A program made the translations under genes and the position numbers. Positions 2,874-17,897 of a stretch of DNA of 64,000 nt are shown in pieces (the first letter of the stretch is position 1; each line of letters starts with the position of its first letter). The stretch covers positions 1,736,001-1,800,000 of the forward strand of contig NZ_JAWQJT010000002.1 in assembly GCF_033441515.1 (NCBI RefSeq), given 5' to 3'. This stretch comes from Amycolatopsis solani (GTDB taxonomy: Bacteria; Actinomycetota; Actinomycetes; Mycobacteriales; Pseudonocardiaceae). Below the pieces are notes generated by a model, which was given only the letters and a program-made list of their open reading frames with translations, ran no database searches and was not told the DNA's origin.

Positions 2874-3643
2874 CCCGCTTCCCGTACCGCGCGGTGTCGT
2901 GGCTGACCCCGGTCGCCCTGCTCGTCGTCTGGGAACTGCTGGCGCGGACCGGGATCCTGCCGAAGCAGGTGCTGCCCGCCCCGAGCGGCGTGCTGGTCAA
3001 AGCGGGCGACCTGCTGGCCGACGGCGAGCTGGTGACCAACCTGCTGGCCAGCCTCCAGCGCTCGGCCACCGGGTTCGCGATCGGCGCGAGCCTCGGCCTC
3101 GGCGCCGGGCTGGTGGTCGGACTGTCCAAAGTGGCCGAAGCACTGCTGGACCGCAGCATCCAGATGGTCCGCGCGGTCCCGTTCCTGGCCATCCTGCCGC
3201 TCGTCATCGTCTGGTTCGGGATCGGCGAGGCCGGGAAGATCTTCCTGATCTCCCTCGGCACCGCGGTCCCGCTGTACCTGACGACCGTGCTGGGCATCCG
3301 GCAGATCGACCCGAAGCTGCTGGAGATGACCGACGTAGTCGGCCTCGGCCGGGCCGCGCAGATCCGCTGGGTGGTGCTGCCGGGCGCACTGCCGTCGATC
3401 CTCGGCGGCCTGCGGCTGTCGCTCACCGCCGCCTGGCTGGCCCTGGTCATCGCCGAAACCCTCGGCGCCGACGCGGGACTCGGGTTCATGGCCACCAACG
3501 CCCGCGAGTTCCTGCAGACCGACGTGATCGTGCTCGTCGTGCTCATCTACGCCGTGATCGGGATCCTCTGCGACCTCGTCACCCGTCTCCTCGAACGCCG
3601 GCTGCTGCGCTGGCACCCCACCTACGCCCGCCTGACCGCCTGA
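2870..3643 (+). CDS. ssuC: SsuC-like ABC transporter permease
   Basis: A 257-aa BPD-type permease starting at ATG 2870 within the ATGA overlap. An N-terminal helix (PVALLVVWELLA) is followed by the core membrane segments. The cytoplasmic EAA loop, which docks the ATPase, is visible around MTDVVGLGRAAQIRWVVLPG (about residues 150-170). Length and layout match the SsuC/TauC family. It is the only permease in an operon with two binding proteins, so both probably feed this one channel or a homodimer of it. Confidence 0.9.
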   Translation: MTRFPYRAVSWLTPVALLVVWELLARTGILPKQVLPAPSGVLVKAGDLLADGELVTNLLASLQRSATGFAIGASLGLGAGLVVGLSKVAEALLDRSIQMVRAVPFLAILPLVIVWFGIGEAGKIFLISLGTAVPLYLTTVLGIRQIDPKLLEMTDVVGLGRAAQIRWVVLPGALPSILGGLRLSLTAAWLALVIAETLGADAGLGFMATNAREFLQTDVIVLVVLIYAVIGILCDLVTRLLERRLLRWHPTYARLTA

Positions 3644-3652
3644 GGACCCGCC

Positions 3653-4621
3653 ATGACGCTCTCCCGACGTACGTTCCTGACCGCAGCCGGCCTGACCGCG
3701 CTGGCCGCCCCGCTCGCCGCGTGCGCCGCCGGCTCGGCCGGCGGCGCCACCCAGGGCAAGGTCCGGCTGACCTACAGCACGATCTCCGTCCCCAAGGCCC
3801 GCGGGGTGCTGGAGAAAACCCTGAAGGAGCAGGGCATCGCGGTCGAATGGGTGGGCCCGTTCCCCAACCACGCGCCCACCCTGCAGGCCGTCGTCGGCGG
3901 CACCGCCGACTTCAGCTTCGGCGGCAGCACCACCCCCGCCGACCAGGCCATCCTCTCCGGTGCCGACCTCGTCTACGTCGCCTGGGCCGCCTCCACCCCG
4001 CGCACCACGGCGATCGTCGCGGGCGCGCACACCGGCATCGAGAAGGTCGCCGATCTGGCGGGCAAGACGGTCGCGGTCAACAAGGCCGGGCTCGGCGAGT
4101 TCCTGCTGGTCGCCGCGCTGGAGAAGTACCAGGTGCCGCGCGAGTCGGTGAAGATCACCTACCTCAACCCGCCCGAGGCGTCCGCGGCCTTCGGCGCCGG
4201 CAAGATCGACGCCTGGGCCATCTGGCAGGGCTTCCGCGAGATCGCCGAGGTCCAGTACGGCGCCAAGCCGATCTTCGTCGACGGCGACGAGCTGGACTTC
4301 CAGATCGACTTCACCAGCTACCTCGTCCGCCGCGACTACGCCGAGCAGAACGCCGACACCATCCGCAAGGTCGTCGCCGCGTTCCAGGCCGACTACGAGT
4401 GGCAGAACCAGCACTACAAGGAATCCCTGGACATCGGCAACGCCGTCTCCCACTACCCGCAGGCCGTGCTGGACAAGATGTCGGCCAAGAACGTGCAGAC
4501 GAAGCTGTCGCTCATCACCGACGACGGGATCGCGCAGCTGCAGCGCGGCGCCGACTGGCTCACCCAGCGCAAGATCCTCAGCGGCCCGATCACGATCGCC
4601 GACCACGCGGTGAAGCTGTGA
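3653..4621 (+). CDS. SsuA-like ABC binding protein with Tat lipoprotein signal (second copy)
   Basis: A 322-aa protein starting 9 nt after the permease. The N-terminus has a twin-arginine motif (SRRTFLTAAG) and a lipobox (LAAC), so it is probably a Tat-exported lipoprotein, unlike the first copy, which has a Sec-type signal. The body has SsuA/TauA-family features: VVGGTADFSFGGSTTP, VADLAGKTVAVNKAG and FGAGKIDAWAIWQGF. Sequence divergence from the first copy suggests a different ligand range rather than a recent duplication. Its stop overlaps the ATPase start (GTGA). Confidence 0.88.
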   Translation: MTLSRRTFLTAAGLTALAAPLAACAAGSAGGATQGKVRLTYSTISVPKARGVLEKTLKEQGIAVEWVGPFPNHAPTLQAVVGGTADFSFGGSTTPADQAILSGADLVYVAWAASTPRTTAIVAGAHTGIEKVADLAGKTVAVNKAGLGEFLLVAALEKYQVPRESVKITYLNPPEASAAFGAGKIDAWAIWQGFREIAEVQYGAKPIFVDGDELDFQIDFTSYLVRRDYAEQNADTIRKVVAAFQADYEWQNQHYKESLDIGNAVSHYPQAVLDKMSAKNVQTKLSLITDDGIAQLQRGADWLTQRKILSGPITIADHAVKL

Positions 4622-5316
4622 CGACCGCCGTGCGCGTGCGCGCGCTGACCAAGAGCTTCGGGCCGCGGACCGTCCTGGACGGACTCGACCTCGACATCGC
4701 GCCCGGCGAGTTCGTGGCTCTCATCGGGGAAAGCGGCTGCGGCAAGACCACGTTGCTGCGCTTGCTCGCCGGGCTCGACCAGCCCGAAGCCGGCGAGCTC
4801 GAAGCCCCGGCCGAGCGGATGGTGGTGTTCCAGGAACACCGGCTGCTGCCGTGGCGGCGGGTGTGGCAGAACGTCGCCGTCGGTCTCCCCCGCGAGGCCG
4901 CCGCCCGTGCGCTGACCGAAGTCGGCCTGGCCGGGCACCTCGACGCCTGGCCCGTGACGCTCTCCGGCGGTGAGGCCCAGCGCGTCGCCCTCGCCAGGGC
5001 ACTGGTGCGCGAGCCGCGGCTCCTGCTGCTCGACGAACCCTTCGCCGCCCTCGACGCGCTCACCCGGATCAAGATGCACGCGCTGGTCCGGCAGCTCGTC
5101 GCCGTGCACCGCCCGGCGGTCCTGCTGGTCACCCACGACGTCGACGAGGCCATCCTCCTGGCCGACCGCGTGGTCGCGATGCGCTCCGGCCGGCTCGCCG
5201 CCGAGCACCGCGTCGACTTCGACGGCGAACGCAGCCGCAGCAACCCCGGGTTCGACGAGCTGCGCCACCGGCTGCTGGCCGAACTCGGCGTCGCCGAACT
5301 GGCCGAGACCCGGTGA
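4618..5316 (+). CDS. ssuB: SsuB-like ABC transporter ATPase
   Basis: A 232-aa nucleotide-binding domain. Walker A GESGCGKTT is at residues 38-46, the Q-loop is in VVFQEHRLLPWRR, the signature LSGGEAQ is at 115-121, and Walker B LLLLDEP at 135-141 is followed by the D-loop and THDVDEA with the H-loop histidine. The VFQEHRLLPW wording is characteristic of the SsuB/TauB/NrtD group. It starts at GTG 4618, overlapping the second binding protein by 4 bp, and powers uptake through the adjacent permease. Confidence 0.92.
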   Translation: MTTAVRVRALTKSFGPRTVLDGLDLDIAPGEFVALIGESGCGKTTLLRLLAGLDQPEAGELEAPAERMVVFQEHRLLPWRRVWQNVAVGLPREAAARALTEVGLAGHLDAWPVTLSGGEAQRVALARALVREPRLLLLDEPFAALDALTRIKMHALVRQLVAVHRPAVLLVTHDVDEAILLADRVVAMRSGRLAAEHRVDFDGERSRSNPGFDELRHRLLAELGVAELAETR

Positions 5317-6782
5317 ACGCCGACGTGCTCGTCATCGGCGGCGGCCTCGCCGCGACCTGGACCGCCTTGGCCGCGGCCCAGGCCGGCGGCGACGTCGTGC
5401 TGGTGGACAAGGGCTACTGCGGCACCAGCGGCGTCACGGCCACCGCCGGGGTGACGCACTGGTTCGTCCGGCCCGAGGACCACGAGCGCGCGGTGACCGA
5501 GCGGCACGCGCACGCCGGCGGGCTCGCCGACCGCGAGCGGGCGCTGCGGGTCCTGCGCACGACGTGGGACCGGCTGCCCACGTTGGACCGGTACTACCCG
5601 TTCCCGGTCCGCGACGGCGAACCCGACCGCGGCAACAACGTGCGCGGACCCGAGTACCTGCGGGCGATGCGCGGCCTGATCCACCGCGCCGGCGTCCGGA
5701 TCCTCGACCACCACCCGGCACTGGAACTGCTGCTGCGCCCCGACGGTTCGGTGGGCGGCGCGGCCGGCGTCCGGCGCCAGGCGGGCGGCACCTGGGAGGT
5801 CCACGCGGGCGCGGTGGTGCTGGCCACCGGCGGCACGGCGTTCCGCTCGCACCTGCTCGGCTCGCGCGGCAACACCGGCGACGGCCACCTGATGGCCGTC
5901 GAAGCGGGCGCCCGCCTGTCCGGCATGGAGTTCTCGAACTACTACACCCTGGCCCCGGCGTTTTCGACGATGGCGCGCTCGATGTCCTACCTGTTCGGCA
6001 CCTTCACCGACGCCGATGGCCGGACCATCGAGCTGCCGTCCGGACCGGACCGCAACCGCGTCCTCGGCGCGGCGCTGCTGCGCGGCCCGGTGTACACGAC
6101 GCTCGACCGCGCGCCGGAGTGGGTGCGCCGCAAGATGCCCGTGGTGCAGCCGAACTTCCTGCTGCCGTTCACCCGCCGCGGCATCGACCCGTACACCGAC
6201 CGGTTCGAGGTCACCTTGCTCGGCGAGGGCACCATCCGCGGCGTCGGCGGACTCGTCACCGGCGAAGACTGCGCCACCGGCGTGCCCGGCCTGTTCGCCG
6301 CCGGCGACGTCGCGAGCCGGGTCCCGGTGGTCGGCGCGATCTCCGGCGGTGGCTCGCCCAACTCGGCGTGGGCGGTGTCGTCGGGCACCTGGGCCGGTCG
6401 CGCGGCGGTCCGCCACGCCCGGTCGGCCCGGCCCGCGCCCCTGCACCCGGCCGGCCGCGCCGGGATCCGCCCCGGCGGGCGTGCGGCCACAGTGGACACC
6501 GCCGCCGTCGTCGACGTCGTGCGCGAGGAGCTGAACGCCTACGACAAGAACATGTTCCGCGACGAGCCGGGTCTCCGCGCCTCGCTGTCCACATTGGATT
6601 CCCTGTGGACGGAAGTCGAGTCCTCGCTCACCGGAGAAGGCCGGGACGCCGTGACGGCGCGCGAGACGGCGTCCCTGGTCGCCATGGGCCGCTGGGTCAA
6701 GGAAGCCGCGCTGCGCAGGCGGGAAACGCTCGGCATGCACTGGCGCACGGACGCCCCGGACGGGCAGGAGGCCGCCGCGTGA
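5313..6782 (+). CDS. AprA/fumarate-reductase-type FAD oxidoreductase subunit
   Basis: A 489-aa flavoprotein. The N-terminal Rossmann motif VLVIGGGLAATWTALAAAQAGG (split here by position, residues 5-26) binds FAD. The mid-section has VVLATGG and GNTGDGHLMAVEAGA, and FAAGDVASRVP is the second FAD-contact motif. The C-terminal helical domain (VVREELNAYDKNMFRDEPGL) is of the succinate-dehydrogenase/adenylylsulfate-reductase type. The gene overlaps the ATPase upstream and a two-cluster ferredoxin downstream by 4 bp each, recalling AprA-AprB, where the ferredoxin subunit relays electrons to FAD. A true APS reductase is unlikely in this assimilatory organosulfur operon, so the reaction is unknown. 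It may handle a C-S or S-O intermediate or supply electrons to the molybdoenzyme. Confidence 0.8.
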   Translation: MNADVLVIGGGLAATWTALAAAQAGGDVVLVDKGYCGTSGVTATAGVTHWFVRPEDHERAVTERHAHAGGLADRERALRVLRTTWDRLPTLDRYYPFPVRDGEPDRGNNVRGPEYLRAMRGLIHRAGVRILDHHPALELLLRPDGSVGGAAGVRRQAGGTWEVHAGAVVLATGGTAFRSHLLGSRGNTGDGHLMAVEAGARLSGMEFSNYYTLAPAFSTMARSMSYLFGTFTDADGRTIELPSGPDRNRVLGAALLRGPVYTTLDRAPEWVRRKMPVVQPNFLLPFTRRGIDPYTDRFEVTLLGEGTIRGVGGLVTGEDCATGVPGLFAAGDVASRVPVVGAISGGGSPNSAWAVSSGTWAGRAAVRHARSARPAPLHPAGRAGIRPGGRAATVDTAAVVDVVREELNAYDKNMFRDEPGLRASLSTLDSLWTEVESSLTGEGRDAVTARETASLVAMGRWVKEAALRRRETLGMHWRTDAPDGQEAAA

Positions 6783-7132
6783 TCGAACTCGTCCTCGCCG
6801 ACCGCTGCATCGCCTGCGACAAGTGCGTCCAGGTGTGTCCCAGCGACGTCTTCGACGCCGTGCCCGACGCCGTGCCGGTCATCGCCCGCCAGAGCGACTG
6901 CCAGACCTGCTTCCTCTGCGAGCTGTACTGCCCGGCCGACGCGCTGTTCGTCGATCCGGACTGCCGCACCCCCGTCAGCGTCGACGAAACGGCCGTCCGC
7001 GCCACGGACTGGCCCGCGCAGTACCGGCGCGACTCCGGCTGGGGCCGGGCGCGCCGCACCCACGCCAACGAAAGCTGGCGGATGAGCGACATCTTCGCCG
7101 CCGCCCGCGCCCTCGGACAGGAGACCCCGTGA
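6779..7132 (+). CDS. Two-cluster 4Fe-4S ferredoxin, AprB-like partner of the flavoprotein
   Basis: A 117-aa protein from GTG 6779 (GTGA overlap). Two cysteine sets are clear: Cys10, 13, 16, 20 in CIACDKCVQVCP and Cys41, 44, 47, 51 in CQTCFLCELYCP. This is a bacterial 2[4Fe-4S] arrangement. The tail (about residues 55-117) is basic and lacks cysteines, similar to the extended C-terminus with which AprB wraps its flavoprotein. Gene order and overlap indicate a heterodimer with the preceding flavoprotein and electron transfer between them. No membrane anchor is present, so the complex should be cytosolic. Confidence 0.85.
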   Translation: MIELVLADRCIACDKCVQVCPSDVFDAVPDAVPVIARQSDCQTCFLCELYCPADALFVDPDCRTPVSVDETAVRATDWPAQYRRDSGWGRARRTHANESWRMSDIFAAARALGQETP

Positions 7133-8187
7133 CGCTCGAATTCATCGGTTACGCCGCCGGCCGCCAGGCCAGCGAGATCGTCGCCCCCGAGGGCCCGATC
7201 ATCCAGCCCGGCTACCTGCGCGAAGTCGCCCGCACCCACGAGGAGGCCGGGTTCGACCGCGTCCTGATCGCGCAGTCGGCGAGCAGTCCGGACGGCTTCG
7301 TGCTCGCCGACCAGGTCCTCTCCGCCACCGAGCGGCTCGGCGTGCTGCTCGCCCACCGGCCCGGGTTCGTCGCGCCGACCCAGCTGGCCCGCAAGTTCGC
7401 CACGCTGGACGCGTTCCACCCCGGCCGGATCGCGCTGCACGTGATCACCGGCGGCGACGACGCCGACCAGGCCCGCGACGGCGACTTCACCGACAAGCCC
7501 ACCCGCTACCGCCGCACCGACGACTTCCTGTCGGTCGTGCGGCGGACGTGGGAGTCGGCCGAGCCGTTCGACCACGAAGGCGAGTTCTACCGCGTCCGCG
7601 GCGCGCTCTCGGACATCCGGCCGGAGCGGCCGATCCCGGTGTACTTCGGCGGCGCGTCCGAGGACGCGATCCGGGTCGGCGGCAGGCACGCCGACGTCTA
7701 CGCGTTCTGGGGCGAGCCCCTGGCCGGCATCGCCGAGCGCATCGGCCAGGTCCGGGCCGCCGCGGCCGGCCGGGACATCGCGTTCAGCGTCAGCCTGCGG
7801 CCGATCCCGGCGGCCACCGAAGCCGAGGCGTGGGAGCGGGCCCGCGACATCCTGCGGCTGACCCAGGACCGCGTCGGCGAGTTCAAGGGCCGCCGCGACT
7901 CGAGCGAAGCCGTCGGCTCACGGCGCCTGCTGGAAGCCGCGACGGCCGGCGAAGTGGTCGACGAGCGCCTGTGGACGGCGGTGGCCAAGACGACCGGCGC
8001 CGCCGGGAACTCCACCGCGCTCGTCGGCAGCTACGAGCAGGTGGCCGACTCGCTCCTGGACTACGTCCGGCTCGGCGTCGGCACACTGCTGATCCGCGGG
8101 TTCTCGCCACTGGCCGACGCCCGCGACTACGGCACCCTCGTAAAGCTCGTCCGGGAGCGGGCCGGCGCGGTTACCGTCGGGGCATGA
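7129..8187 (+). CDS. SsuD/LLM-class FMNH2-dependent monooxygenase
   Basis: A 352-aa TIM-barrel flavin monooxygenase of the bacterial luciferase superfamily. Recognisable stretches include FDRVLIAQSASSPDG, GVLLAHRPGFVAPTQLARK, IALHVITGGDDADQ and PVYFGGASEDAIRVGG, matching the alkanesulfonate-monooxygenase branch (SsuD, SfnG and relatives). These enzymes use reduced FMN and O2 to cleave C-S bonds and release sulfite. FMNH2 can come from the flavin reductase three genes on. Start GTG 7129 overlaps the ferredoxin stop. Whether the substrate is an alkanesulfonate, a sulfone or another organosulfur compound cannot be decided from sequence. Confidence 0.88.
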   Translation: MTLEFIGYAAGRQASEIVAPEGPIIQPGYLREVARTHEEAGFDRVLIAQSASSPDGFVLADQVLSATERLGVLLAHRPGFVAPTQLARKFATLDAFHPGRIALHVITGGDDADQARDGDFTDKPTRYRRTDDFLSVVRRTWESAEPFDHEGEFYRVRGALSDIRPERPIPVYFGGASEDAIRVGGRHADVYAFWGEPLAGIAERIGQVRAAAAGRDIAFSVSLRPIPAATEAEAWERARDILRLTQDRVGEFKGRRDSSEAVGSRRLLEAATAGEVVDERLWTAVAKTTGAAGNSTALVGSYEQVADSLLDYVRLGVGTLLIRGFSPLADARDYGTLVKLVRERAGAVTVGA

Positions 8188-10406
8188 AGCCGACCACATC
8201 GCACTGGGGAGCCTTCTCGGCCGAGGTCGGCCCGGACGGCCGGGTGCGCGTCGAACCGCACCCGGCCGACCCGGCGCCGTCACCGCTGCTGGGCAACCTG
8301 GCCGCCGCGCTGGACCACCCGAGCCGGGTCGCCCGGCCGGCGGTCCGCCGCGGCTGGCTCGAGAACGGTCCGGGCCCGGACGAGCGCCGCGGCCGCGACG
8401 AGTTCGTCGAGGTGCACTGGGACGACGTGCTCGACCGGCTGGCCGCCGAGCTGGCGCGGGTCCGGACCGGGCACGGCAACCAGGCGATCTTCGGCGGCTC
8501 CTACGGCTGGGCCAGCGCCGGGCGGTTCCACCACGCGCAGAGCCAGCTGCACCGGTTCCTGAACACGATCGGCGGGTTCACGTCGTCGCGCAACAGCTAC
8601 AGCAACGGGACGTCGTCGGTGCTGCTGCCGCACGTCGTCGGCGACACGCACGCGGTGCTGCGGCAAGCGTCGACTTGGCCGACCGTCGCCGAGCACACCG
8701 AGCTGATCGTCGCCTTCGGCGGCGTCCCGGAGAAGAACGTCTTCGTCACCCCCGGCGGCGTCACCGTGCACGGGACACCGGGTCACCTCGCGCGGCTGCG
8801 GGCCCGCGTCGCGCTCGTCAGCCCGCTGCGCGACGACCTGCCGTCCACTGTGGACGCCCGCTGGTACCCGATCCGGCCCGCCACCGACACCGCGCTGATG
8901 CTCGCGCTGGCCCACACGCTCGTCGGGGAAGGCTTGCACGACCGGGAGTTCCTGGACCGCTACTGCGTCGGCTACCCGGAGTTCGAGCACTACCTGCGGG
9001 ACAAGGACCCCGACTGGGCGGCCGCGATCACCGGCATTCCCGCCGCCGACATCGTCGCGCTCGCCAGGGAGATGGCCGCGCACCGGACGTTGATCACCGT
9101 CACGTGGTCGTTGCAGCGCACCGAACACGGCGAACAGCCGGTGTGGGCGGGCATCGCGCTGGCCGCGATGCTCGGGCAGATCGGCCTGCCCGGCGGCGGG
9201 TTCGGGCACGGCTACGGCTCGATGGGCGACGTCGGCGACACCGGCCCCGAAGAGCGCGTCCCGCACTTGCCGCAGGGGGTGAACCCGGTCGGCGAGTTCA
9301 TCCCCGTCGCCCGGATCGCCGACCTGCTGCTCTCCCCCGGCGCCGAGTACGACTACGACGGCGAAGTCCGCCGCTACCCCGACACCCGGCTCGTCTACTG
9401 GGCCGGCGGCAACCCGTTCCACCACCACCAGGACCTCAACCGCCTGCGCCGCGCGTTCACCCGCCCGGACACCGTCGTCGTCCACGAACCGCACTGGACG
9501 GCCACGGCCCGGCACGCCGACATCGTGCTGCCCGCGACGACCGCACTGGAACGCGAGGACCTCGGCTCGGGCCGCCGCGACACCCACCTGATCGCGATGC
9601 ACCGGATCGCTTCGCCGGCCGGAGAAGCCCGCGACGACTACGCGATCTTCGCGGCGCTGGCCTCCCGGCTCGGCGTCGGCGACGCGTTCACCGAAGGCCG
9701 CACCGCCCGGGAATGGCTGGCCCACCTCTACGGCGGCTGGCGCGCGGAACCGGCGTTCGAGCGGTTCTGGGCCGACGGCGAGCTGCGCCTCCCGCCCGGC
9801 CGCGAGCACCACACGCTGTTCGCCGACTTCCGCGCCGACCCGGTGGCGCACCCGCTGCGCACGCCCAGCGGCCGCATCGAGATCACGTCGGCGACGATCG
9901 CGGGCTTCGGTTACCCGGACTGCCCCGGGCACCCGGCCTGGCTGCCGCCGACCGAGTCCGGCCCGCTGTGGCTGATCGCCAACCAGCCGCACACCCGCTT
10001 GCACAGCCAGCTCGACGCCGGCGACGTCAGCCGCGCGGGCAAGGTGGCGGGCCGCGAGCGGATCCGCCTCAACCCGGCCGACGCGGCGGCCCGCGGCATC
10101 ACGACCGGCGACGTCGTGCGGGTGTTCAACACCCGCGGCGCCTGCCTGGCCGGCGCGGTCCTCGACGACGCCCTCCGCCCCGGCGTGGTCCAGCTCCCGA
10201 CCGGCGCGTGGTTCGACCCGGTCGACGACCACGCGAGCGGGCCGCTGTGCGCGCACGGCAACCCGAACGTCCTCACGGCCGACATCCCGTCGTCACGGCT
10301 GTCCCAGGGCTGCGCCGGCCAGCACGCCGCCGTCGACGTCGAACTCTTCACCGGTCCCGTCCCGCCCGTGCGGGCCCTGGATCCCCCGCTTCGGGAAGGA
10401 CGCTGA
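8184..10406 (+). CDS. DMSO-reductase-family molybdopterin enzyme (BisC/TorA/DorA type, cytosolic)
   Basis: A 740-aa catalytic subunit that binds bis-MGD. The N-terminus (TSHWGAF) has no [4Fe-4S] motif. The stretches GGSYGWASAGRFHHAQSQL and NSYSNGTSSVLLPHVVG match the serine-ligated group, with Ser140 the likely molybdenum ligand. The C-terminal part (LHSQLDAG, RIRLNPADAAARGI, GDVVRVFNTRGA, LPTGAWFDP) is the cofactor-binding domain. Family members reduce sulfoxides or N-oxides. No Tat signal is visible, so it resembles BisC (biotin or methionine sulfoxide reductase) rather than periplasmic TorA/DmsA. Upstream genes overlap it by 4 bp. Its role may be to reduce a sulfoxide so that the sulfur can enter assimilation. 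Confidence 0.9.
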   Translation: MKPTTSHWGAFSAEVGPDGRVRVEPHPADPAPSPLLGNLAAALDHPSRVARPAVRRGWLENGPGPDERRGRDEFVEVHWDDVLDRLAAELARVRTGHGNQAIFGGSYGWASAGRFHHAQSQLHRFLNTIGGFTSSRNSYSNGTSSVLLPHVVGDTHAVLRQASTWPTVAEHTELIVAFGGVPEKNVFVTPGGVTVHGTPGHLARLRARVALVSPLRDDLPSTVDARWYPIRPATDTALMLALAHTLVGEGLHDREFLDRYCVGYPEFEHYLRDKDPDWAAAITGIPAADIVALAREMAAHRTLITVTWSLQRTEHGEQPVWAGIALAAMLGQIGLPGGGFGHGYGSMGDVGDTGPEERVPHLPQGVNPVGEFIPVARIADLLLSPGAEYDYDGEVRRYPDTRLVYWAGGNPFHHHQDLNRLRRAFTRPDTVVVHEPHWTATARHADIVLPATTALEREDLGSGRRDTHLIAMHRIASPAGEARDDYAIFAALASRLGVGDAFTEGRTAREWLAHLYGGWRAEPAFERFWADGELRLPPGREHHTLFADFRADPVAHPLRTPSGRIEITSATIAGFGYPDCPGHPAWLPPTESGPLWLIANQPHTRLHSQLDAGDVSRAGKVAGRERIRLNPADAAARGITTGDVVRVFNTRGACLAGAVLDDALRPGVVQLPTGAWFDPVDDHASGPLCAHGNPNVLTADIPSSRLSQGCAGQHAAVDVELFTGPVPPVRALDPPLREGR

Positions 10407-10894
10407 TGATCGACCTCCAGTCCGTGACGTCCGAGAGCCACCTGCGCGAAGCGTTCGGCTGCTTCCCTTCGGGCGTCACCGCGGTGTGCGCCCTCGACGA
10501 CGGCGTCCCCCGCGGGATGGCCGCCAGCTCCTTCACGTCGGTGTCCCTGTCGCCGCCGCTGGTGTCGATCTGCGTCCAGCGGACGTCGTCGACGTGGCCA
10601 CTCCTGCGGAACCGGCCCCGGCTGGGCCTCAGCGTCCTCGCCGAAGGCCAGGACGACGCCTGCCTCAGCCTCTCCGCCCGCGGCGGCGACCGCTTCCGCG
10701 ACGTCGACTGGGAGCCCGGCCCGCACGACAGCGTGTTCATCAGCGGATCGAGTGCCTGGCTGGAGTGTTCCCCGTACGACGAGGTCCTGGCGGGCGACCA
10801 CGTGATCGCCCTGCTGAAGATCCACCGCCTGCGCACGGCCGCCGCTCCACCGCTGGTCTTCCACGGCAGCCGATTTCGCCGGCTCGCCGCTTGA
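10406..10894 (+). CDS. NAD(P)H:flavin reductase, split-barrel FMN-binding domain
   Basis: A 162-aa protein of the flavin-reductase-like family: [38 protein letters not shown] and the closing FHGSRFRRL are diagnostic. It starts at ATG 10406 within a TGATG overlap, the ninth and last gene of the operon. It should supply free reduced FMN to the SsuD-like monooxygenase and perhaps to the DszC-like enzyme encoded on the other strand at 16420-17616. It ends 3 nt before the convergent stop of the peptide ABC ATPase, leaving no room for a conventional terminator. Confidence 0.9.
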
Positions 10895-10897
10895 CCC

Positions 10898-12607
10898 TCA
10901 ACGCAGCTTGCGCCAGGCTTCGCGGCGCTGTCGCTGGGCTTCCGGGTCGGCGATCGGCGCCGCCGAAAGCAGCCGGCGCGTGTACGGGTGGGCCGGGGCG
11001 GTCAGGACCTCCTTGGCCGGCCCCTGTTCGACCACGTGCCCGCGGTGCATCACCGCGACACGGTCGGCGAGCTGCTCGATCACCGCGAGGTCGTGGCTGA
11101 TGAACAGGCACGCGAAGCCGAACTCGTGCCGCAGCTCGCGCAGCAGGGTGAGGATGCGGGCCTGGATCGTGACGTCGAGCGCGCTCGTCGGCTCGTCGGC
11201 CACCAGCAGGTCCGGGCGCAGCGCCAGGGCCCGCGCGATGCAGGCGCGCTGCCGCTGGCCGCCGGACAGTTCGTGCGGGTAGCGCGAAGCCAGCGCCGGG
11301 GACAGCTGGACGGCTTCGAGCAGCTCACCGACCCGGCGGTCCACTTCGGAGCCGCGGGCCGCGCCGTGCAGCCGCAGCGGGGTCGCGACGCTTTCCCCCA
11401 CCGGCGTACGCGGGTTGAGCGACGACAGCGGGTCCTGGAACACCACCCCGATCCGGCGCCGCAGCGCCTTCGCCGCCCGGCCGCGCAGCCGGGTGATGTC
11501 CGCGTCCCCGATGCGCACGGATCCCGCCGTCGGCGCGAGCAGCCCGGTGACCGCCCTGGCCACCGTGCTCTTGCCCGAGCCGGACTCCCCGACCAGGCCC
11601 AGCACCTCCCCCGGCTCCACGTGCAGGCTCACCGCCGAGGCCGCGTGGACGGCCATCGCGCGGAAGCGGCCGCGGTAGGTCACCGACAGGTTCTCCACGC
11701 GCAGCAGCGGCGCCTCCGCGGGGACGTCCGGCACCGACGCCACGGCGGGGTGCTCTTCCGCGGCGACGTGGCCCGGCCCGGCCGTGACGCCCGCGGCCGG
11801 CGCGTGGTCGAGCCCGGTCGCCGCCGCGGTGCTGAGCGAGACGACCGAGCCGAGCAGCTGCCGCGTGTAGTCCTCGGCCGGCGCGGTGAAGATCGTCCGG
11901 ACGTCACCTTGTTCGACGACGCGCCCGTCGTGCATCACGACCACCCGGTCGGCGAGGTCGGCGACCACGCCCATGTCGTGCGTGATCAGCAGGATCGCCG
12001 TGCCGAGCCGGGACCGCAGGTCCCGCAGCAGCTCGAGGATCTCGGCCTGCACGGTGACGTCCAGCGCGGTTGTCGGCTCGTCGGCGATCAGCAGCTTCGG
12101 CTCGTTCGCCACCGCCATGGCGATCACGACGCGCTGCAACTGCCCGCCGGACAGCTCGTGCGGGTACGCCCGCACCCGCTCGCGCGGGTTCGGCAGCCCG
12201 ACGACGCCCAGCAGTTCGATCGCCCGCTCGCGGGCCGCGGCCGCGGTCAGCTCCTGGTGCGTGCGGATCGCCTCGACGACCTGGTCGCCGATGGTGAACA
12301 CCGGGTTCAGCGCGCTCATCGGCTCCTGGAACACCATGCCGACGTCACCGCCGCGCACCGCGCGCAGCTCGGCCGGCGTCATCGCGTAGAGGTCCCGCCC
12401 GGCCAGCTCCGCCCGGCCCGTCACGCGGGCCGTGGGCGGGAGCAGGCCGAGCAGGGACATCGCGGTGACCGTCTTGCCGGAGCCGGACTCCCCGACCACC
12501 GCGACGACTTCGCCCGCGGCGACCTCGTAGCCGGCCCCGCGCACGGCTTCGACGTCCCCGAACGAGACCGCGACGTCGTGCAGCCGCAGGAGCCCGGCTC
12601 CGGTCAC
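10898..12607 (-). CDS. Dipeptide/oligopeptide-type ABC ATPase, two fused nucleotide-binding domains
   Basis: A 569-aa protein joining DppD- and DppF-like ATPases. The first domain has Walker [11 protein letters not shown], signature LSGGQLQR and Walker B LLIADEP. The second has [18 protein letters not shown] and LLVADEP. A low-complexity Ala/Pro linker of about 50 residues separates them. The start is GTG 12607, which overlaps the binding-protein stop by 4 bp (GTGA); the longer open frame that runs into the neighbour is not used. It energises the importer formed by the next three genes upstream. Confidence 0.9.
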
Positions 12608-14274
12608 TGGACGATCCCCAGCTTGCGGTAGTCGACGTACGCCGGGAACCGGCCGATCTCGACGCCGCCGACCTGCGAGCCGTGCAGGAACGAGTTGCGC
12701 GTGTAGATCAGCGGCACGACGGGCGAGTCGGCGAGGATCTTCTTGTCCAGCGCCGCCCACTTCTTGCCCGCTTCGGCCGGGTCCACAGTGGCCTGTGCCT
12801 CGCCGATCAGCTTGTCGACCTCGGGGTTGCTGTACCGCGACTCGTTGTACCCGCCGTTGCCGATCTCCGTGGACTGGAACAGCGGCTGGATGTTCGCGTT
12901 GGCCGACGGGATGTCCGGCTGCCACGAGGTGAGCGTCAGGTCGTAGTCCGACAGGCCCTTGGTGTCCACTTCGGACGTGTAGGTGTCGTCGTCGAGCGGC
13001 TTGATGGAGACCTTGATGCCCGCGCGTGCCAGCGACGCCTGGATCGCCGCGGCCTTCTCCGGGAAGCCCCGCTCGTTGTGGGTGGCCAGCGCCAGGCCGT
13101 CGAGCCCGTTCGGGAAGCCCGCCTCGGTCAGCAGCTGCTTCGCCTTCGCCACATCACCGGACGGCGGCGCCGGGTACAGGTCGTACTGCTCGCGGCCCTG
13201 CAGGCCCGGGGTGATGAGCGTGGTGGCGACGTCCCCGGCCAGCTGGGCGCTGCCGGCGCTGGCGACCTGGTAGGCGGCCTTGTCGACGGCGTACTGGAAC
13301 GCCTGGCGCACCTTCGGGTTGGTGAGGTTTCCGCGCTGGGTGTTCAGCGAAAGGTAGGCCAGCGCCCCGGATTCCGACGTCACCAGCCGCGACTTCGCCG
13401 AGGCGTTGCCCTGGATCTGGGCCAGCTGGGCCGGCGAAGCGAACGACATGCCGAACGCGGCGCGGTCCTTGCCCGTGTCGTCGACCAGGCGCTTGGAGAT
13501 GACGCCGGTGTCCTGGCCGAGCTCGAAGTCGATGGTGTCCGGTTCGGCGAGCCGCGTCTTGTCTTCCACGCGGCTCCAGTTGGGGTTGCGGGTGAGCTTC
13601 GCGGACTTGCCGCGCTCGTAGCTCGCCAGCTGGTACGGGCCGGACGCGACCGGGTGGTCACCGTAGTTGGCCTCGGCGCCCTTGCCCCGGGGCACCGGGG
13701 AGAACGCCGGGGTGCTGGCGACCCAGTTGAAGTCGCCGTACGCGCGCGCCAGGTGGAAGACGACGGTCTTCGCGTCCGGCGTCTGGATGGTGTCGAGCTC
13801 CTTGCCGCCGTCGAACGGGCCCTTGTACGCCAGCCCCGGCGAGAGCAGGTCCTTGTGGTAGGCCAGGCCACCGGAGAAGGCGGGCGCGAACGACCGCTCC
13901 AGGCCCCACTTGACGTCCGCCGAGGTGATCGGCGTGCCGTCGGCGTACTTCAGGTTGTCCTTGAGGGTGAACGTCCAGGTCTTGCCGCCGTCGCTCGGCC
14001 GCCCGGTGTCGGTGGCCAGGTCGGGCACGATCGTGGTGTCCTTGCCCGGCGCGACGTCCCACGACGTCAGCCGCCGGTGGATCAGGCCCAGGGTGGTGAC
14101 GACGAGGTTCGAGCTCTTCGCCGGGTCCCAGGTGATCGACGGCGCGTCGTTGAGCAGGACGAGGTTCCCGCCCGGCTTGACCGCGCCGCCCTGCGAAGCC
14201 GGTGTGTCGTTGGCCCCGCACGCCGTCAGCAGCGTGACGGCGGCCAGCACCCCCGCGAACCGCAGCTTTTTCAT
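12604..14274 (-). CDS. Family-5 peptide-type ABC binding lipoprotein
   Basis: A 556-aa protein with a lipoprotein signal (MKKLRFAG, a hydrophobic core, lipobox LTAC, Cys19). The mature part has SBP_bac_5 features: LVTTLGLIHRRLTSWD-like domain I wording, TWTFTLKDNLKYADGTPITSADVKWGLERSF, and SYERGKSAKLTRNPNW. Members bind di- and oligopeptides, nickel chelates, glutathione or opine-like ligands. Its position inside a sulfur neighbourhood favours an S-containing peptide or conjugate, but that is inference. It lies 10 nt after the first permease gene. Confidence 0.9.
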   Translation of the reverse strand: MKKLRFAGVLAAVTLLTACGANDTPASQGGAVKPGGNLVLLNDAPSITWDPAKSSNLVVTTLGLIHRRLTSWDVAPGKDTTIVPDLATDTGRPSDGGKTWTFTLKDNLKYADGTPITSADVKWGLERSFAPAFSGGLAYHKDLLSPGLAYKGPFDGGKELDTIQTPDAKTVVFHLARAYGDFNWVASTPAFSPVPRGKGAEANYGDHPVASGPYQLASYERGKSAKLTRNPNWSRVEDKTRLAEPDTIDFELGQDTGVISKRLVDDTGKDRAAFGMSFASPAQLAQIQGNASAKSRLVTSESGALAYLSLNTQRGNLTNPKVRQAFQYAVDKAAYQVASAGSAQLAGDVATTLITPGLQGREQYDLYPAPPSGDVAKAKQLLTEAGFPNGLDGLALATHNERGFPEKAAAIQASLARAGIKVSIKPLDDDTYTSEVDTKGLSDYDLTLTSWQPDIPSANANIQPLFQSTEIGNGGYNESRYSNPEVDKLIGEAQATVDPAEAGKKWAALDKKILADSPVVPLIYTRNSFLHGSQVGGVEIGRFPAYVDYRKLGIVQ

Positions 14275-14284
14275 CGTGTCCCCT

Positions 14285-15280
14285 TCAGACGAGGCGGGCT
14301 CGCGGATCGAGCGCGCCGTAGCAGAGATCGACCAGGAAGTTCAGGACCGTGACCAGCAGGGCCGAGAACAGCGTCACGCCCAGCAGCACCGGCAGGTTGA
14401 GCGAGGCGATCGCGTCGACGAGCAGCCGCCCGACGCCGGCCATGCCGAAGATCCGTTCGGTGATCACGGTGCCGGCCAGCAGCGCGCCGAGGTCGACGCC
14501 GAAGACCGTGACGACCGGCAGCAGGACGTTGCGCAAGGCGTGGCGCCCCACCACCTTCCGCTCGGTGAGGCCCTTGGCCCTGGCCGTGCGGATGTAGTCC
14601 TCGCCGAGCGTCTCGAGCATCTGGCCCCGCGTGAGCCGCGCGTAGATCGCGGCGTGCAGGAACGCCAGCACGAACCAGGGCAGCACGAGGTGCCACGCCC
14701 ACTGGGCGGGATCCTCGGTCAGCGGCACGTAACCGGACTTCGGGACGACGTCGAGGGCGAACGCGAAGATCGTGATGCCGATCATCCCGGCCAGGTAGGC
14801 GGGCATGGACACCCCGGCCATCGCGGCGGCCATGGTGATCCGGTCGGTGGCGCTGCCCCGGCGCAGCGCCGAAAGCACGCCGAGCCCGACGCCGGCGACG
14901 ATCCAGATCGCGGCCGCGCCCAGCGCCACCGAGAAGCTGACCTCGATCCGGCCGCCGATCTCGCTCAGCACGTCCACGTTGTTCTGGAAGTCCCACCCGA
15001 AGCACGGCGCCGTGCAGTGGATCGCCGCCGCGCCGGTGCCGAACGTGCGGCCGCCGATGATGCCGCCGAGGAAGTCGAAGAACTGCCCGTACCACGGGAC
15101 GTCGTAGCCCATGAACTCCCGCGCGAGCTGCAGGCCTTCCGGCGAACACGGACGGCCGCACGCCATCCGCGCCGGGTCGGCGGGCAGGACGTAGAACACC
15201 ACGAACGTCACGAAGGCGACGACGAACAGCACGAGCAGCATCCCGGCGAACCGGGTCGCGACGAAGCGGGCGGTGCGCAT
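14285..15280 (-). CDS. DppB-like ABC transporter permease
   Basis: A 331-aa permease starting at ATG 15280 (ATGA overlap with the partner permease). The N-terminal transmembrane helix (MLLVLFVVAFVTFVVFYVLPADPA) ends in the DppB-like LPADPA motif. The EAA-like docking loop is at EDYIRTARAKGLTERKVVGR, and the C-terminus NFLVDLCYGALDPR is characteristic of the family. An insertion around residues 40-95 holds several cysteines (ACGRPCSP, HCTAPCFGW), probably in the extracytoplasmic loop, which is longer and more cysteine-rich than usual. It forms the channel with the next gene. Confidence 0.9.
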   Translation of the reverse strand: MRTARFVATRFAGMLLVLFVVAFVTFVVFYVLPADPARMACGRPCSPEGLQLAREFMGYDVPWYGQFFDFLGGIIGGRTFGTGAAAIHCTAPCFGWDFQNNVDVLSEIGGRIEVSFSVALGAAAIWIVAGVGLGVLSALRRGSATDRITMAAAMAGVSMPAYLAGMIGITIFAFALDVVPKSGYVPLTEDPAQWAWHLVLPWFVLAFLHAAIYARLTRGQMLETLGEDYIRTARAKGLTERKVVGRHALRNVLLPVVTVFGVDLGALLAGTVITERIFGMAGVGRLLVDAIASLNLPVLLGVTLFSALLVTVLNFLVDLCYGALDPRARLV

Positions 15281-16203
15281 CAGGCCGCACCCCCGGACCG
15301 CGGGTCGAGTGCGTCGCGGATCGCGTCGCCGACGACGTTGAACGCCAGGGTGACCAGGAACAGCAGCGCCCCGGGGAAGACCAGGTACATCGGGTCGGTC
15401 TCGAAGAAGTCGATGGCCGTGCTGATCGTGCGGCCCCAGCTCGGCGTCGGCGGCAGGACACCGACGCCGAGGAACGACAGGGCGGCCTCGCTGCCGATCA
15501 TCGACGGGATGGCGAGGCTCGCCACGACGATGACCGGCGCCCAGAGGTTGGGCAGCAGCTCCTTGGTGAACACGTGCCACGGGCCGCCGCCGATGACCCG
15601 GGCCGCGGCGACGAAGTCGCGCTGGGCCAGGGTGAGGGTCTGGGCCCGGACGATCCGGGCCACGCGCGGCCAGCCGAAGAGCCCGAGGACGACGATCAGC
15701 GTGACCTGCCGGGGGAAGTCGATCGGCAGGACCGCGCCCAGCGCGATCATGAAGATCAGGTACGGGAAGCCGAGGATGACGTCGGCGGTCCAGGTGACCA
15801 GCCGGTCCCACCAGCCGCCGAGGTAGCCGGCGCTGACCCCGATCACGACGCCGAGCGCGGTGCCGAGCACGGTCGCGCCGAGCCCGACGAGCAGCGACGT
15901 CCGGGCGCCGCGGGCGACGAGCGCGAAGAGGTCGACGCCGGTCAGCGGCTCGACCCCGAACCAGTGGGCGCCGCTCACGCCGCCGAGCGTCCCGGCGGGC
16001 AGCCCGGTCGGGCCGAGCGTGCCGATGTCCGGCACCAGGCTCTGCCCTTCGGCCAGCACGAACAGGTCGGCCGCGGCGGCGAGCAGCACGATGAGGACGA
16101 TCAGCACCACGCAGGTGGACGTCCACCACCCGGAACGGACGGCACGCCACACCGCGGCGGGCAGGGAGCGCGCCGCGAGGGGCGGCAGGGCAGGGGCGGA
16201 CAC
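15280..16203 (-). CDS. DppC-like ABC transporter permease, first gene of the importer operon
   Basis: A 307-aa permease with an N-terminal membrane helix, extracytoplasmic region HWFGVEPLTGVDLFALVARGARTS, five further hydrophobic segments and the EAA loop QRDFVAAARVIGGGPWHVFTKELLPN. The C-terminus NVVGDAIRDALDPR is typical of DppC. GTG 16203 is chosen because GAGG lies five nt upstream (minus strand TTGAGGTGCTGTG). As first gene of the operon it must have its promoter in 16204-16330; TTGTCA at about 16234 (minus) is the best -35 candidate, without a clear -10. Confidence 0.9.
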   Translation of the reverse strand: MSAPALPPLAARSLPAAVWRAVRSGWWTSTCVVLIVLIVLLAAAADLFVLAEGQSLVPDIGTLGPTGLPAGTLGGVSGAHWFGVEPLTGVDLFALVARGARTSLLVGLGATVLGTALGVVIGVSAGYLGGWWDRLVTWTADVILGFPYLIFMIALGAVLPIDFPRQVTLIVVLGLFGWPRVARIVRAQTLTLAQRDFVAAARVIGGGPWHVFTKELLPNLWAPVIVVASLAIPSMIGSEAALSFLGVGVLPPTPSWGRTISTAIDFFETDPMYLVFPGALLFLVTLAFNVVGDAIRDALDPRSGGAA

Positions 16204-16419: not shown

Positions 16420-17616
16420 TCACGTGTACCAGGTCGGCTCCGGCAGCTCGCCGCGCAGCGCGTAGACGCCGACTTCGCGCCGCTTGTAGGCCACCGGGTC
16501 GTGCAGCGAGTGCGTGCGCAGGTTCCGCCAGAACCGGTCCAGGCCGTACTTCGACGCGCTCGCGCGGGCGCCCGCCAGCTCGAAGATCTTCGTCCCGATC
16601 TCCAGGCCCGTCTCGATCACGCGCTGCTTGGCCGCCGCGATCAGGACCGCCAGCTCACCGCGGGCCTCCGGCGTCAGCTCCTCGCGCGGCGCGTGCAGCA
16701 CGGCCGAAATCGCCGCGCCCGCCTTGTCCGTGAGCGCCTCGGCCGCCCACAGCTTCGCCTGCAGATCGCCGTAGCCGTCGAGGATGTACCACTCGTCCGC
16801 GGCGGCCTCCTTGTCGTCGCCGCCGTACGGCCAGGGGCGGGTGCGCTCGCGCGTGTAGGCCAGCCCCGCGTCGAGGGCGCCCTGGGCGATGCCGAGGTAG
16901 AAGTTGGTGAACACCAGCTGGATCGCCGGGACGTTGAGCGTGTTGTAGGTCAGCGGCCGGAACGTCCGGCCGACGTAGCCGGCGGCGCTCGCCCACGGCA
17001 CTCGCACGTCGGTGATCGTGACGCTGCCGGACTCGGTGAGCCGCTGGCCGAGGTTGTCCCAGTCGTCGTGGAAGACGATGCCGTCCTGTGCGGACGGGAC
17101 GATGGCGAAGATGTGGTCCCCGGCCCCGGAAAGGACACCTTCGAGCACGGTCAGGTCGGAAACCCTGCTGCCGGTGGAAAACGACTTGTGTCCGTTGTAG
17201 ACGAGCTCGTCGCCGTCCTCGGTGATGGTCAGGTCGGAGTCGCGGGGGTTGACCGCGCCGCCGAAGAAGAAGTTGTTGCCGGTGTAGAGCTCCTCGACGG
17301 CGGCGATCTGCTCGTCGGTCCCGACCAGCCGGGCCGCCCAGGCCCAGAGGTAGTGGTAGCCGAGCAGCTGCCCGATCGAACCGTCGGCGCGGGCGACTTC
17401 CCGCGTCACGCGGTAGGCGGTGTCCCAGGTCTGCCCGCCTCCCCCGTGCTCGGCCGGGCCGAGCAGGGTCACCAGGCCGGCGTCCTTGAGGAGCTGGACT
17501 TCTTCGTACGGCGTGGCGTTGCGGCGATCCCGTTCGACGGCGTCGACAGCGAGCTTCGCGGCGACGTCCTTCGCGGCCACGAGCCACTCGGCCGCGGTCT
17601 TTTCCGTTGTGGTCAC
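16420..17616 (-). CDS. DszC/SfnB-like flavin-dependent monooxygenase of the acyl-CoA dehydrogenase fold
   Basis: A 398-aa protein with the acyl-CoA-dehydrogenase fold. The order and wording of motifs match dibenzothiophene monooxygenase DszC: VTREVARADGSIGQLLGYHY, NGHKSFSTGSRVSDL, FTNFYLGIAQGALDAGLAYTRE and, near the end, YGLDRFWRNLRTHSLHDPV. Such enzymes use FMNH2 and O2 to oxidise sulfides or sulfoxides, or act in sulfone use (SfnB). The usual catalytic Glu of true dehydrogenases is not evident. The start is GTG 17616, with AAGGGA about six nt upstream. A cysteine-type leader peptide precedes it, linking it to sulfur limitation. FMNH2 may come from the reductase at 10406-10894. Confidence 0.88.
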   Translation of the reverse strand: MTTTEKTAAEWLVAAKDVAAKLAVDAVERDRRNATPYEEVQLLKDAGLVTLLGPAEHGGGGQTWDTAYRVTREVARADGSIGQLLGYHYLWAWAARLVGTDEQIAAVEELYTGNNFFFGGAVNPRDSDLTITEDGDELVYNGHKSFSTGSRVSDLTVLEGVLSGAGDHIFAIVPSAQDGIVFHDDWDNLGQRLTESGSVTITDVRVPWASAAGYVGRTFRPLTYNTLNVPAIQLVFTNFYLGIAQGALDAGLAYTRERTRPWPYGGDDKEAAADEWYILDGYGDLQAKLWAAEALTDKAGAAISAVLHAPREELTPEARGELAVLIAAAKQRVIETGLEIGTKIFELAGARASASKYGLDRFWRNLRTHSLHDPVAYKRREVGVYALRGELPEPTWYT

Positions 17617-17698
17617 AGGGTTTCCCTTCGGGTGTGCGGGCAGGACGGACCAACCCTGGTGCAGGGCATGGCGAACAGGGGTGATCAGCGGGGAATCG
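17617..17698 (-). promoter_or_regulatory. Putative attenuator region between leader peptide and monooxygenase gene
   Basis: The 82-nt transcript between the leader stop and the GTG start holds competing short complementary elements: CCCCUG, then CCCUGCACCAGGG (a 5-bp hairpin), then AGGGAAACCCU, which would fold the ribosome binding site AAGGGA into a small stem. Translation or stalling on the leader could shift these pairings. The individual stems are short and no computed folding supports a specific model. Confidence 0.4.
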
Positions 17699-17773
17699 TC
17701 AGGCGGTACAGCGCGAACCGGCGCCGCGGACGAAGTCGACGTGGCGGCGGCGGGTGAGCTGGATGCCGTCCAT
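17699..17773 (-). CDS. Leader peptide of the actinobacterial RRHVD...C family (24 aa)
   Basis: This is a 25-codon frame beginning MDGIQLTRRRHVDF and ending in a single cysteine three residues before the stop (SRCTA). The Arg-Arg-His-Val-Asp core followed by a near-terminal Cys matches the short leader peptides found upstream of many actinobacterial sulfate, thiosulfate and sulfonate genes. Slow decoding of the cysteine codon, TGT at 17710-17708, when Cys-tRNA is scarce would report sulfur starvation. The ATG at 17773 coincides with the predicted transcription start, so the leader mRNA is probably leaderless, as described for mycobacterial cysteine attenuators. The DszC-like start lies 82 nt downstream. 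Confidence 0.85.
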   Translation of the reverse strand: MDGIQLTRRRHVDFVRGAGSRCTA

Positions 17774-17779
17774 GATCCG

Positions 17780-17808
17780 AGTACACCGGGTGCCCGCGGG
17801 GGTGTCAA
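17780..17808 (-). promoter_or_regulatory. Consensus promoter for the leaderless leader peptide
   Basis: On the minus strand, perfect -35 TTGACA (17808-17803) is followed after 17 nt by TGTACT (17785-17780), a four-of-six -10 match. The A of the leader ATG lies exactly seven nt after the -10 box, where transcription should start. This is the best housekeeping-type promoter I found in the window. Confidence 0.7.
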
Positions 17809-17897
17809 CGCGGGTCCGCGCGCTGGGACCGGCGCGGCCGAATACCCGCAGTTCTTCCTCTGCGTCTTCGCCGGTTCCCGGCGCGCGGAAGCCTCGG

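Follow-up and report, generated by a model that had tools for sequence, protein, structure and literature searches.

A short leader with a conserved UGU cysteine codon, putatively cysteine-sensing, upstream of a DszC/MsuC/SfnB-like monooxygenase gene in Amycolatopsis

The window, that is, the whole 64,000-nucleotide stretch of Amycolatopsis solani DNA that was analysed, carries on its minus strand a gene for a DszC/MsuC/SfnB-like flavin monooxygenase (398 aa; 16420..17616), which starts with GTG at 17616 behind a GAAGGGA ribosome binding site and is preceded by a short open reading frame (ORF) with an RRHVD motif and a Cys codon. The encoded protein belongs with the acyl-CoA dehydrogenase-like monooxygenases and is alike over its whole length to the methanesulfinate monooxygenase MsuC (6u76, 255 bits) and to DszC (4doy, 250 bits), but it falls far below the NCBIfam cut-offs for both DszC (270.8 against 850) and SfnB (260.1 against 430.9). 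Thus, the label "DszC/SfnB-like" given in the original prediction holds for the type of family but not as an assignment, MsuC matching about as well as DszC and neither cut-off being reached. In ten Amycolatopsis loci (L013, L014, L017–L020, L022–L025), the orthologue is preceded by an sfnG-like LLM gene (recognised by motif and by eye), and no RRHVD motif was found in short Cys-containing ORFs within the 420 nt before that gene. A leader with RRHVD or RRHLD does stand before the sfnG gene paired with the orthologue in Saccharopolyspora (L027, L030, L032, L035 and L043), in Nocardia sp. NRRL S-836 (L084) and in Herbihabitans (L083). Taken together, the family matches, the pairing with sfnG and the RRHVD/RRHLD leaders indicate that the monooxygenase probably serves organosulfur use.

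Downstream of the monooxygenase gene, after a gap of 216 nt, lie genes for an oligopeptide/nickel-type ABC transporter (two permeases, a solute-binding protein and a double ATPase; 10898..16203, minus strand); they were considered as part of a conserved operon and rejected, since they were not found up to some 7 kb away from the gene in six promoter-type relatives with flanks (L009–L012, L015 and L016). Elsewhere in the window, the plus strand at 2899-10894 holds an organosulfur-looking cluster, named by eye, with ABC transporter, AprA-like and ferredoxin-like genes as well as genes for an LLM monooxygenase, a molybdopterin oxidoreductase and a flavin reductase. In A. saalfeldensis (L021), the monooxygenase gene adjoins a divergent cysteine synthase-like gene, and no short leader was found in the 330 nt before the monooxygenase gene.

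The monooxygenase gene was found in 36 of 80 Amycolatopsis genomes, and its upstream region was examined in 30 of these 36 (29 loci and the window). The promoter type of the window is common to 20 of the 30 (19 of the 29 besides the window). It consists of the −35 hexamer TTGACA (17803..17808, minus strand), identical in all 20 rows, and, after a 17-nt spacer, the −10 hexamer TGTACT (17780..17785, minus strand), which reads T[GC]TACT throughout the 20. The original prediction had termed this TTGACA-N17-TGTACT promoter perfect, which is correct for the consensus −35 hexamer and the 17-nt spacer but not for the −10 hexamer, which lacks the usual A at the second position and is not a consensus hexamer; a consensus promoter scan found no promoter at the window locus. 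On the minus strand, CGGATC separates the −10 hexamer from the leader ATG, whose A is the seventh nucleotide past the −10 hexamer. From this spacing, it is plausible that transcription starts on the leader ATG and that the leader is translated as a leaderless ORF.

Just 5′ of the −35 hexamer lies a conserved block, GGTCCCAGCGCGCGGAC plus 5 nt (17809..17830, minus strand), which is a candidate operator or extended promoter. Its core CYCAGMGCGCGGAC, 5 nt before the −35 hexamer (17814-17830 in the window), is present in all 20 promoter-type rows and is preceded by GGTC in 17 of them, with divergent sequence farther upstream. Among the 13 short-leader-clade rows, a set that takes in L132, the 25 nt ahead of the −35 hexamer had a mean pairwise identity of 0.953, as against 0.610 farther upstream, and the promoter itself had 0.947. 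The block may be a site for some regulator. The copy in the window also contains an inverted repeat, GGTCC-N8-GGACC. One other exact copy occurs in the same genome, within a coding-looking stretch, and a genome-wide regulon was rejected, the counts with up to two mismatches (81+91) being not far above those of the reversed control (55+67).

The leader ORF MDGIQLTRRRHVDFVRGAGSRCTA (24 codons plus TGA; 17699..17773, minus strand) runs from the ATG at 17773 through LTRRRHVD and a single Cys codon, TGT, third before the stop (17708..17710, minus strand), to the TGA at 17701-17699, so that the predicted 24-codon frame with its RRHVD core and one near-terminal Cys can be read directly in the sequence. 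The peptide matches the NCBIfam model NF042934 ("putative leader peptide") with 22.7 bits and an E value of 5.3e-5, and, because the curated cut-off is 27 bits, we term it a relative of the NF042934 kind, rather than filing it as a scored member; a score of 39.9 bits was obtained for the A. pittospori leader (L010). The relation consists in the LTRRRHVDLxR...C core of NF042934, which is classed as cis_reg_atten alongside the Cys-rich leaders NF042933 (Ms5788A) and NF042936 (Ms4527A). In both cases the ORF is short, and the window leader combines the RRHVD core and a Cys near the stop with a sulfur-type gene downstream; it differs in staying below the cut-off, and most of its relatives at the locus lack the whole RRHVD block. 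With regard to the RRHVD cysteine-leader family named in the original prediction, the score supports a relation and not a scored membership. A probably leaderless RRHVD-type cysteine leader before an organosulfur-type monooxygenase is supported by the sequence, by the relation to NF042934 and by the RRHVD/RRHLD leaders near orthologues. No Rfam family or riboswitch reached its gathering score anywhere in the window.

Matches to NF042934 at E ≤ 0.001 were obtained in 110 of 148 genomes across the class, 96 of them over the cut-off, and in none of 14 control genomes at the same E value. In the A. solani genome itself, two places exceed the cut-off, and the window leader ranks third at 20.7 bits. 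One of the two precedes a sulfite/nitrite reductase-like gene followed by a cysH-like gene (both named by eye). In the same genome (L208, C3:2015720), an RRHVD-like leader with TGT, sixth in rank at 14.2 bits, stands before a gene that by eye resembles cysteine dioxygenase; as this enzyme acts in cysteine breakdown, the direction of control, if real, would be of interest. A strict RRHVD pattern at the DNA level gave 81 sites in this genome versus 38 in the reversed control; of 80 occurrences inspected, only one (L162) resembled a Cys leader in its layout. In Saccharopolyspora clusters (L027, L030, L031, L032 and L043), up to three separate RRHVD-type leaders were seen; those of L027 precede an MFS transporter gene, an LLM monooxygenase gene and the sfnG–monooxygenase pair (names by eye).

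Comparison across the genus revealed that the leader has been shortened in frame. An intact leader is present in 17 of the 20 promoter-type rows (16 besides the window), a recurrence that, along with the NF042934 match, goes beyond what chance would give. It comprises 24 codons with RRHVD in the window, L123 and L127 (A. pittospori), 11 codons in L122, nine in L119, eight in L124, L125 (Amycolatopsis sp. WAC 01376) and L126, and five in L128, L129 (A. keratiniphila), L131, L134 (A. decaplanina), L135, L136, L140 (A. azurea), L141 (A. oliviviridis) and L142, where names were given by 300-base identity. The frame, the near-stop Cys codon and the stop are kept in all 17, and the distances from ATG to Cys (6, 15, 24 or 63 nt) are without exception multiples of three. 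RRHVD, in contrast, is retained in three of the 17, and hence the refuting condition of the original prediction, a peptide not conserved among relatives, has a split outcome: the Cys codon and stop are conserved, whereas the core is usually lost at this locus. On the gene's own tree, the presence and absence of RRHVD take three changes by parsimony, which, because RRHVD is found class-wide, are best read as losses, namely in the 13-row clade, in L122 and, once or more, in the L119–L121 group. The Amycolatopsis series thereby amounts to a natural deletion experiment that sets a losable RRHVD against a kept frame, UGU and stop. Three rows have no intact leader: L120 lacks the ATG and the Cys, L121 lacks the leader body, and L132 has AGG for ATG; control would accordingly be dispensable in some species. 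In L121, the leaderless ATG, 26 nt ahead of the gene, now begins a frame of nine codons that contains no Cys, extends across the binding site and overlaps the gene's TTG start codon, giving a natural version with no sensor.

The five-codon pattern was found in nine of 80 genomes of the genus and in six of 297 in a draw from the family, always beside the monooxygenase gene, and not once in the reversed control among the genomes listed. With TANNNT as the −10 hexamer, the same pattern gave no hit in the 80 genomes, missing the known cases; the eight-codon pattern occurred in three of the 80. A seven-residue leader, MCSDRCC, in Saccharopolyspora (L027 and L030) was considered as a second shortening and rejected, as it is an alternate frame of an intact 26-residue leader beginning at a GTG two bases after the start of that frame.

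The constraint on the shortened leaders could be estimated from mean pairwise identities in the 13 short-leader-clade rows. The last 12 nt of the leader gave 0.962, compared with 0.673 for the 27 nt past the stop and 0.774 for 173 fourfold sites; the hairpin farther on gave 0.915 and the stretch to the start codon 0.918. Moreover, 11 of the last 12 leader nucleotides are invariant versus 32.4% of the 173 fourfold columns (binomial 3.5e-5 if the sites are independent). The leader end is thus under constraint, and the stretch directly behind it is not.

The choice of the Cys codon was counted as well. At the locus, 16 of the 17 intact leaders, and 13 of the 14 shortened ones, use TGT as their last Cys codon, versus 18 of 236 in the background (Cys codons from composition-predicted ORFs of the same genus). 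The aligned Cys, defined as lying 12 codons past the residue before H/A of (R/L)(H/A)VD, is TGT in all 18 Saccharopolyspora leaders listed, some of which are nearly identical, whereas their eight other Cys codons are all TGC and the background has TGT in four of 93. Class-wide, 73 loci (four from the A. solani genome and 69 among the matches listed) were considered, of which nine could not be parsed and were left out; the 64 parsed loci are all leader-like, and the aligned Cys is TGT in 63 of them, while TGT makes up 16 of the 97 Cys codons at other places in these leaders. Since the parse demands a Cys at the aligned place, this count tells which Cys codon is used, not whether a Cys is present, and, the leaders being mutually related, the codon counts are not independent. 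The sole exception is the best-scoring leader of the A. solani genome, before the sulfite reductase-like gene, which has UGC. The codon just 5′ of the aligned Cys ends in G or C in all 64, so that TGT does not reflect codon usage loosened throughout the leader. As UGU is nearly universal there although these genomes usually prefer UGC, the synonymous codon choice, not the amino acid alone, is under selection. Taken with the losses of RRHVD, the sensor looks codon-specific (UGU) and the RRHVD block dispensable. The cause of the codon choice may be slower wobble decoding of UGU by a single Cys tRNA, or it may be RNA pairing.

The arrangement of promoter, leader and gene and its conservation, the frame-keeping contraction, the constraint on the leader end and the choice of UGU are probably best accounted for by a translated leader that senses cysteine, with the UGU near the stop, rather than the RRHVD block, as the cue. 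We infer that the monooxygenase is under cysteine control, in the following manner. The transcript would begin with the first base of the leader ATG, where ribosomes would initiate without a Shine-Dalgarno (SD) sequence. With ample Cys-tRNA, the ribosome would pass the UGU and depart; with scarce Cys-tRNA, it would wait at the UGU, the third codon ahead of the stop, and this waiting ribosome on the first tens of nucleotides would raise the expression of the downstream monooxygenase. Low cysteine would in this way lead to the scavenging of sulfur through raised monooxygenase. Presumably, the output lies at the translation of the downstream gene, not at termination. If the control is real, organosulfur scavenging shares its signal with sulfate assimilation.

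The alternative that survives best is that UGU is kept for RNA pairing and not for decoding. In a 14-row alignment (A1), the leader is followed by a 15-pair hairpin, and CUGU of the leader could pair around it with ACAG just 5′ of the binding site, a helix that any ribosome on the leader would open. RNAalifold predicted this helix unaided from the 14 rows, every one of which combines C-U-G-U with A-C-A-G, and the hairpin inside it has three pairs changed on both sides, a number reached by none of 500 shuffles. Five of the seven helix pairs are invariant, however, so there is no covariation for the helix, and the whole structure slid by −2 has a covariation score of 0.050 versus 0.041 for the original. 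Direct complementarity between the leader Cys stretch and the next ribosome binding site gave a mean z of 0.15 over 39 scored leaders; six leaders had no callable start, and six of the nine Amycolatopsis starts among the 39 were miscalled. With the true starts of 17 Amycolatopsis leaders, the mean z was −0.53 with 12 of 17 negative; in the clade that comprises L127 and the short forms, 11 of its 13 intact leaders were more complementary than shuffles, mostly weakly, but the window (z 1.38), L119 (0.75) and L122 (1.30) were not. Single cases of such complementarity occur elsewhere (L251, and L027 at 5623). Complementarity to the binding site is hence not general among leaders, and the pairing is absent in leaders generally even though UGU is nearly universal. 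We consider this reading rather unlikely.

A modelled ribosome was also placed on the 17 intact rows. With the ribosome on the Cys codon, the accessibility of the SD-like stretch rose in 14 rows, fell in two and stayed equal in one, and with the ribosome at the leader stop it rose in ten and fell in seven; this stretch is a 4–5-nt script pick, AGAA in most rows, that is perhaps not the true site, and the rows are related and come without a shuffle control. In L122, no SD-like stretch was found and the start was placed a few nucleotides off. Taken over the start region as a whole (−14 to +3), the mean modelled accessibility in the 17 rows did not change, at 0.50 with free RNA, 0.50 with a stalled ribosome and 0.51 with the ribosome at the stop.

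According to a second alternative, completion of the leader would lead to a terminator before the monooxygenase gene, that is, transcription attenuation, for which the strong hairpin that separates the leader from the gene in the 14-row alignment offers itself (fold z −3.05, −4.76 and −3.06 in three short-leader rows and −1.80 in L127). No T run follows this hairpin in the alignment, however, and in the window no intrinsic terminator, defined as a hairpin followed by a T run, was found between 17300 and 18100. The 82-nt spacer from the leader stop to the GTG (17617..17698, minus strand) is predicted to pair UUCCC, from the fourth nucleotide past the stop, with GGGAA in the ribosome binding site, but its fold is no better than that of shuffles (z 0.55, 139 of 200 shuffles being at least as stable), nor is that of leader and spacer together (z 0.41). 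Accordingly, neither the alternative short stems that had been proposed for these 82 nt nor a stem-based attenuator built on them is upheld in the window, and attenuation of this type appears improbable. Still less probable is that the leader is a relic in the genus and that expression depends on the promoter and upstream block alone, given that the leader end is far more conserved than fourfold sites, that all ATG-to-Cys distances are in frame and that the shortened intact leaders keep UGU as described, even though the leader is lost in three of 20 rows, two of them (L120 and L121) close relatives of the window, and the window peptide lies below the NF042934 cut-off.

Returning to the cysteine-sensing leader, its kind and the role of cysteine are already known from other actinobacteria. 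Canestrari and co-workers are said to have described, in 2020, cysteine-responsive polycysteine leaderless short ORFs in mycobacteria. The mycobacterial ORFs and the leaders here are alike in the leaderless start (presumed here), in a Cys near the stop and in a cysteine or sulfur gene downstream; the leaders here differ in having one Cys codon, a length down to five codons and an organosulfur-type monooxygenase as target. The window leader, with one Cys, lacks the run of several Cys codons by which mycobacterial attenuators are recognised, and the intact leaders at the locus have one Cys in 15 and two in two of the 17. For M. smegmatis, PMC9031893 and PMC13236596 cite attenuation that depends on cysteine and is exerted by leaderless Cys short ORFs, and Shell et al. 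(2015; PMC4633059) were the first to note the polycysteine leaderless short ORFs of mycobacteria. The codon-specific UGU pattern of the leaders described here may be a further difference. In Streptomyces lividans, leaders for leucine, tryptophan and others have 12–29 residues, many being leaderless and several having U-rich terminators, and none of the eight listed is for cysteine (PMC8079986); they are likewise short and actinobacterial and differ in the amino acids sensed.

In the accessible parts of the open-licence full texts, a body without Canestrari 2020, no report of the UGU pattern was found. Within that scope, the codon-specific UGU pattern is new here, as are the contraction to five codons and the loss of RRHVD. 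Extending the proposal, we suggest tentatively, at somewhat less than even confidence, that a UGU a few codons before the stop is the sensor of the whole actinobacterial RRHVD family, with RRHVD as an accessory, and that an ORF of five codons (AUG-N-UGU-N-GCC-stop), placed at the very 5′ end of a transcript, would suffice for cysteine control. Polycysteine leaders were also seen within the same order (L248, L250 and L251); two of them, L248 (z −1.09) and L251 (z −2.71), have a Cys stretch complementary to CAACAGGAG in the ribosome binding site that follows, which fits the published model of SD masking.
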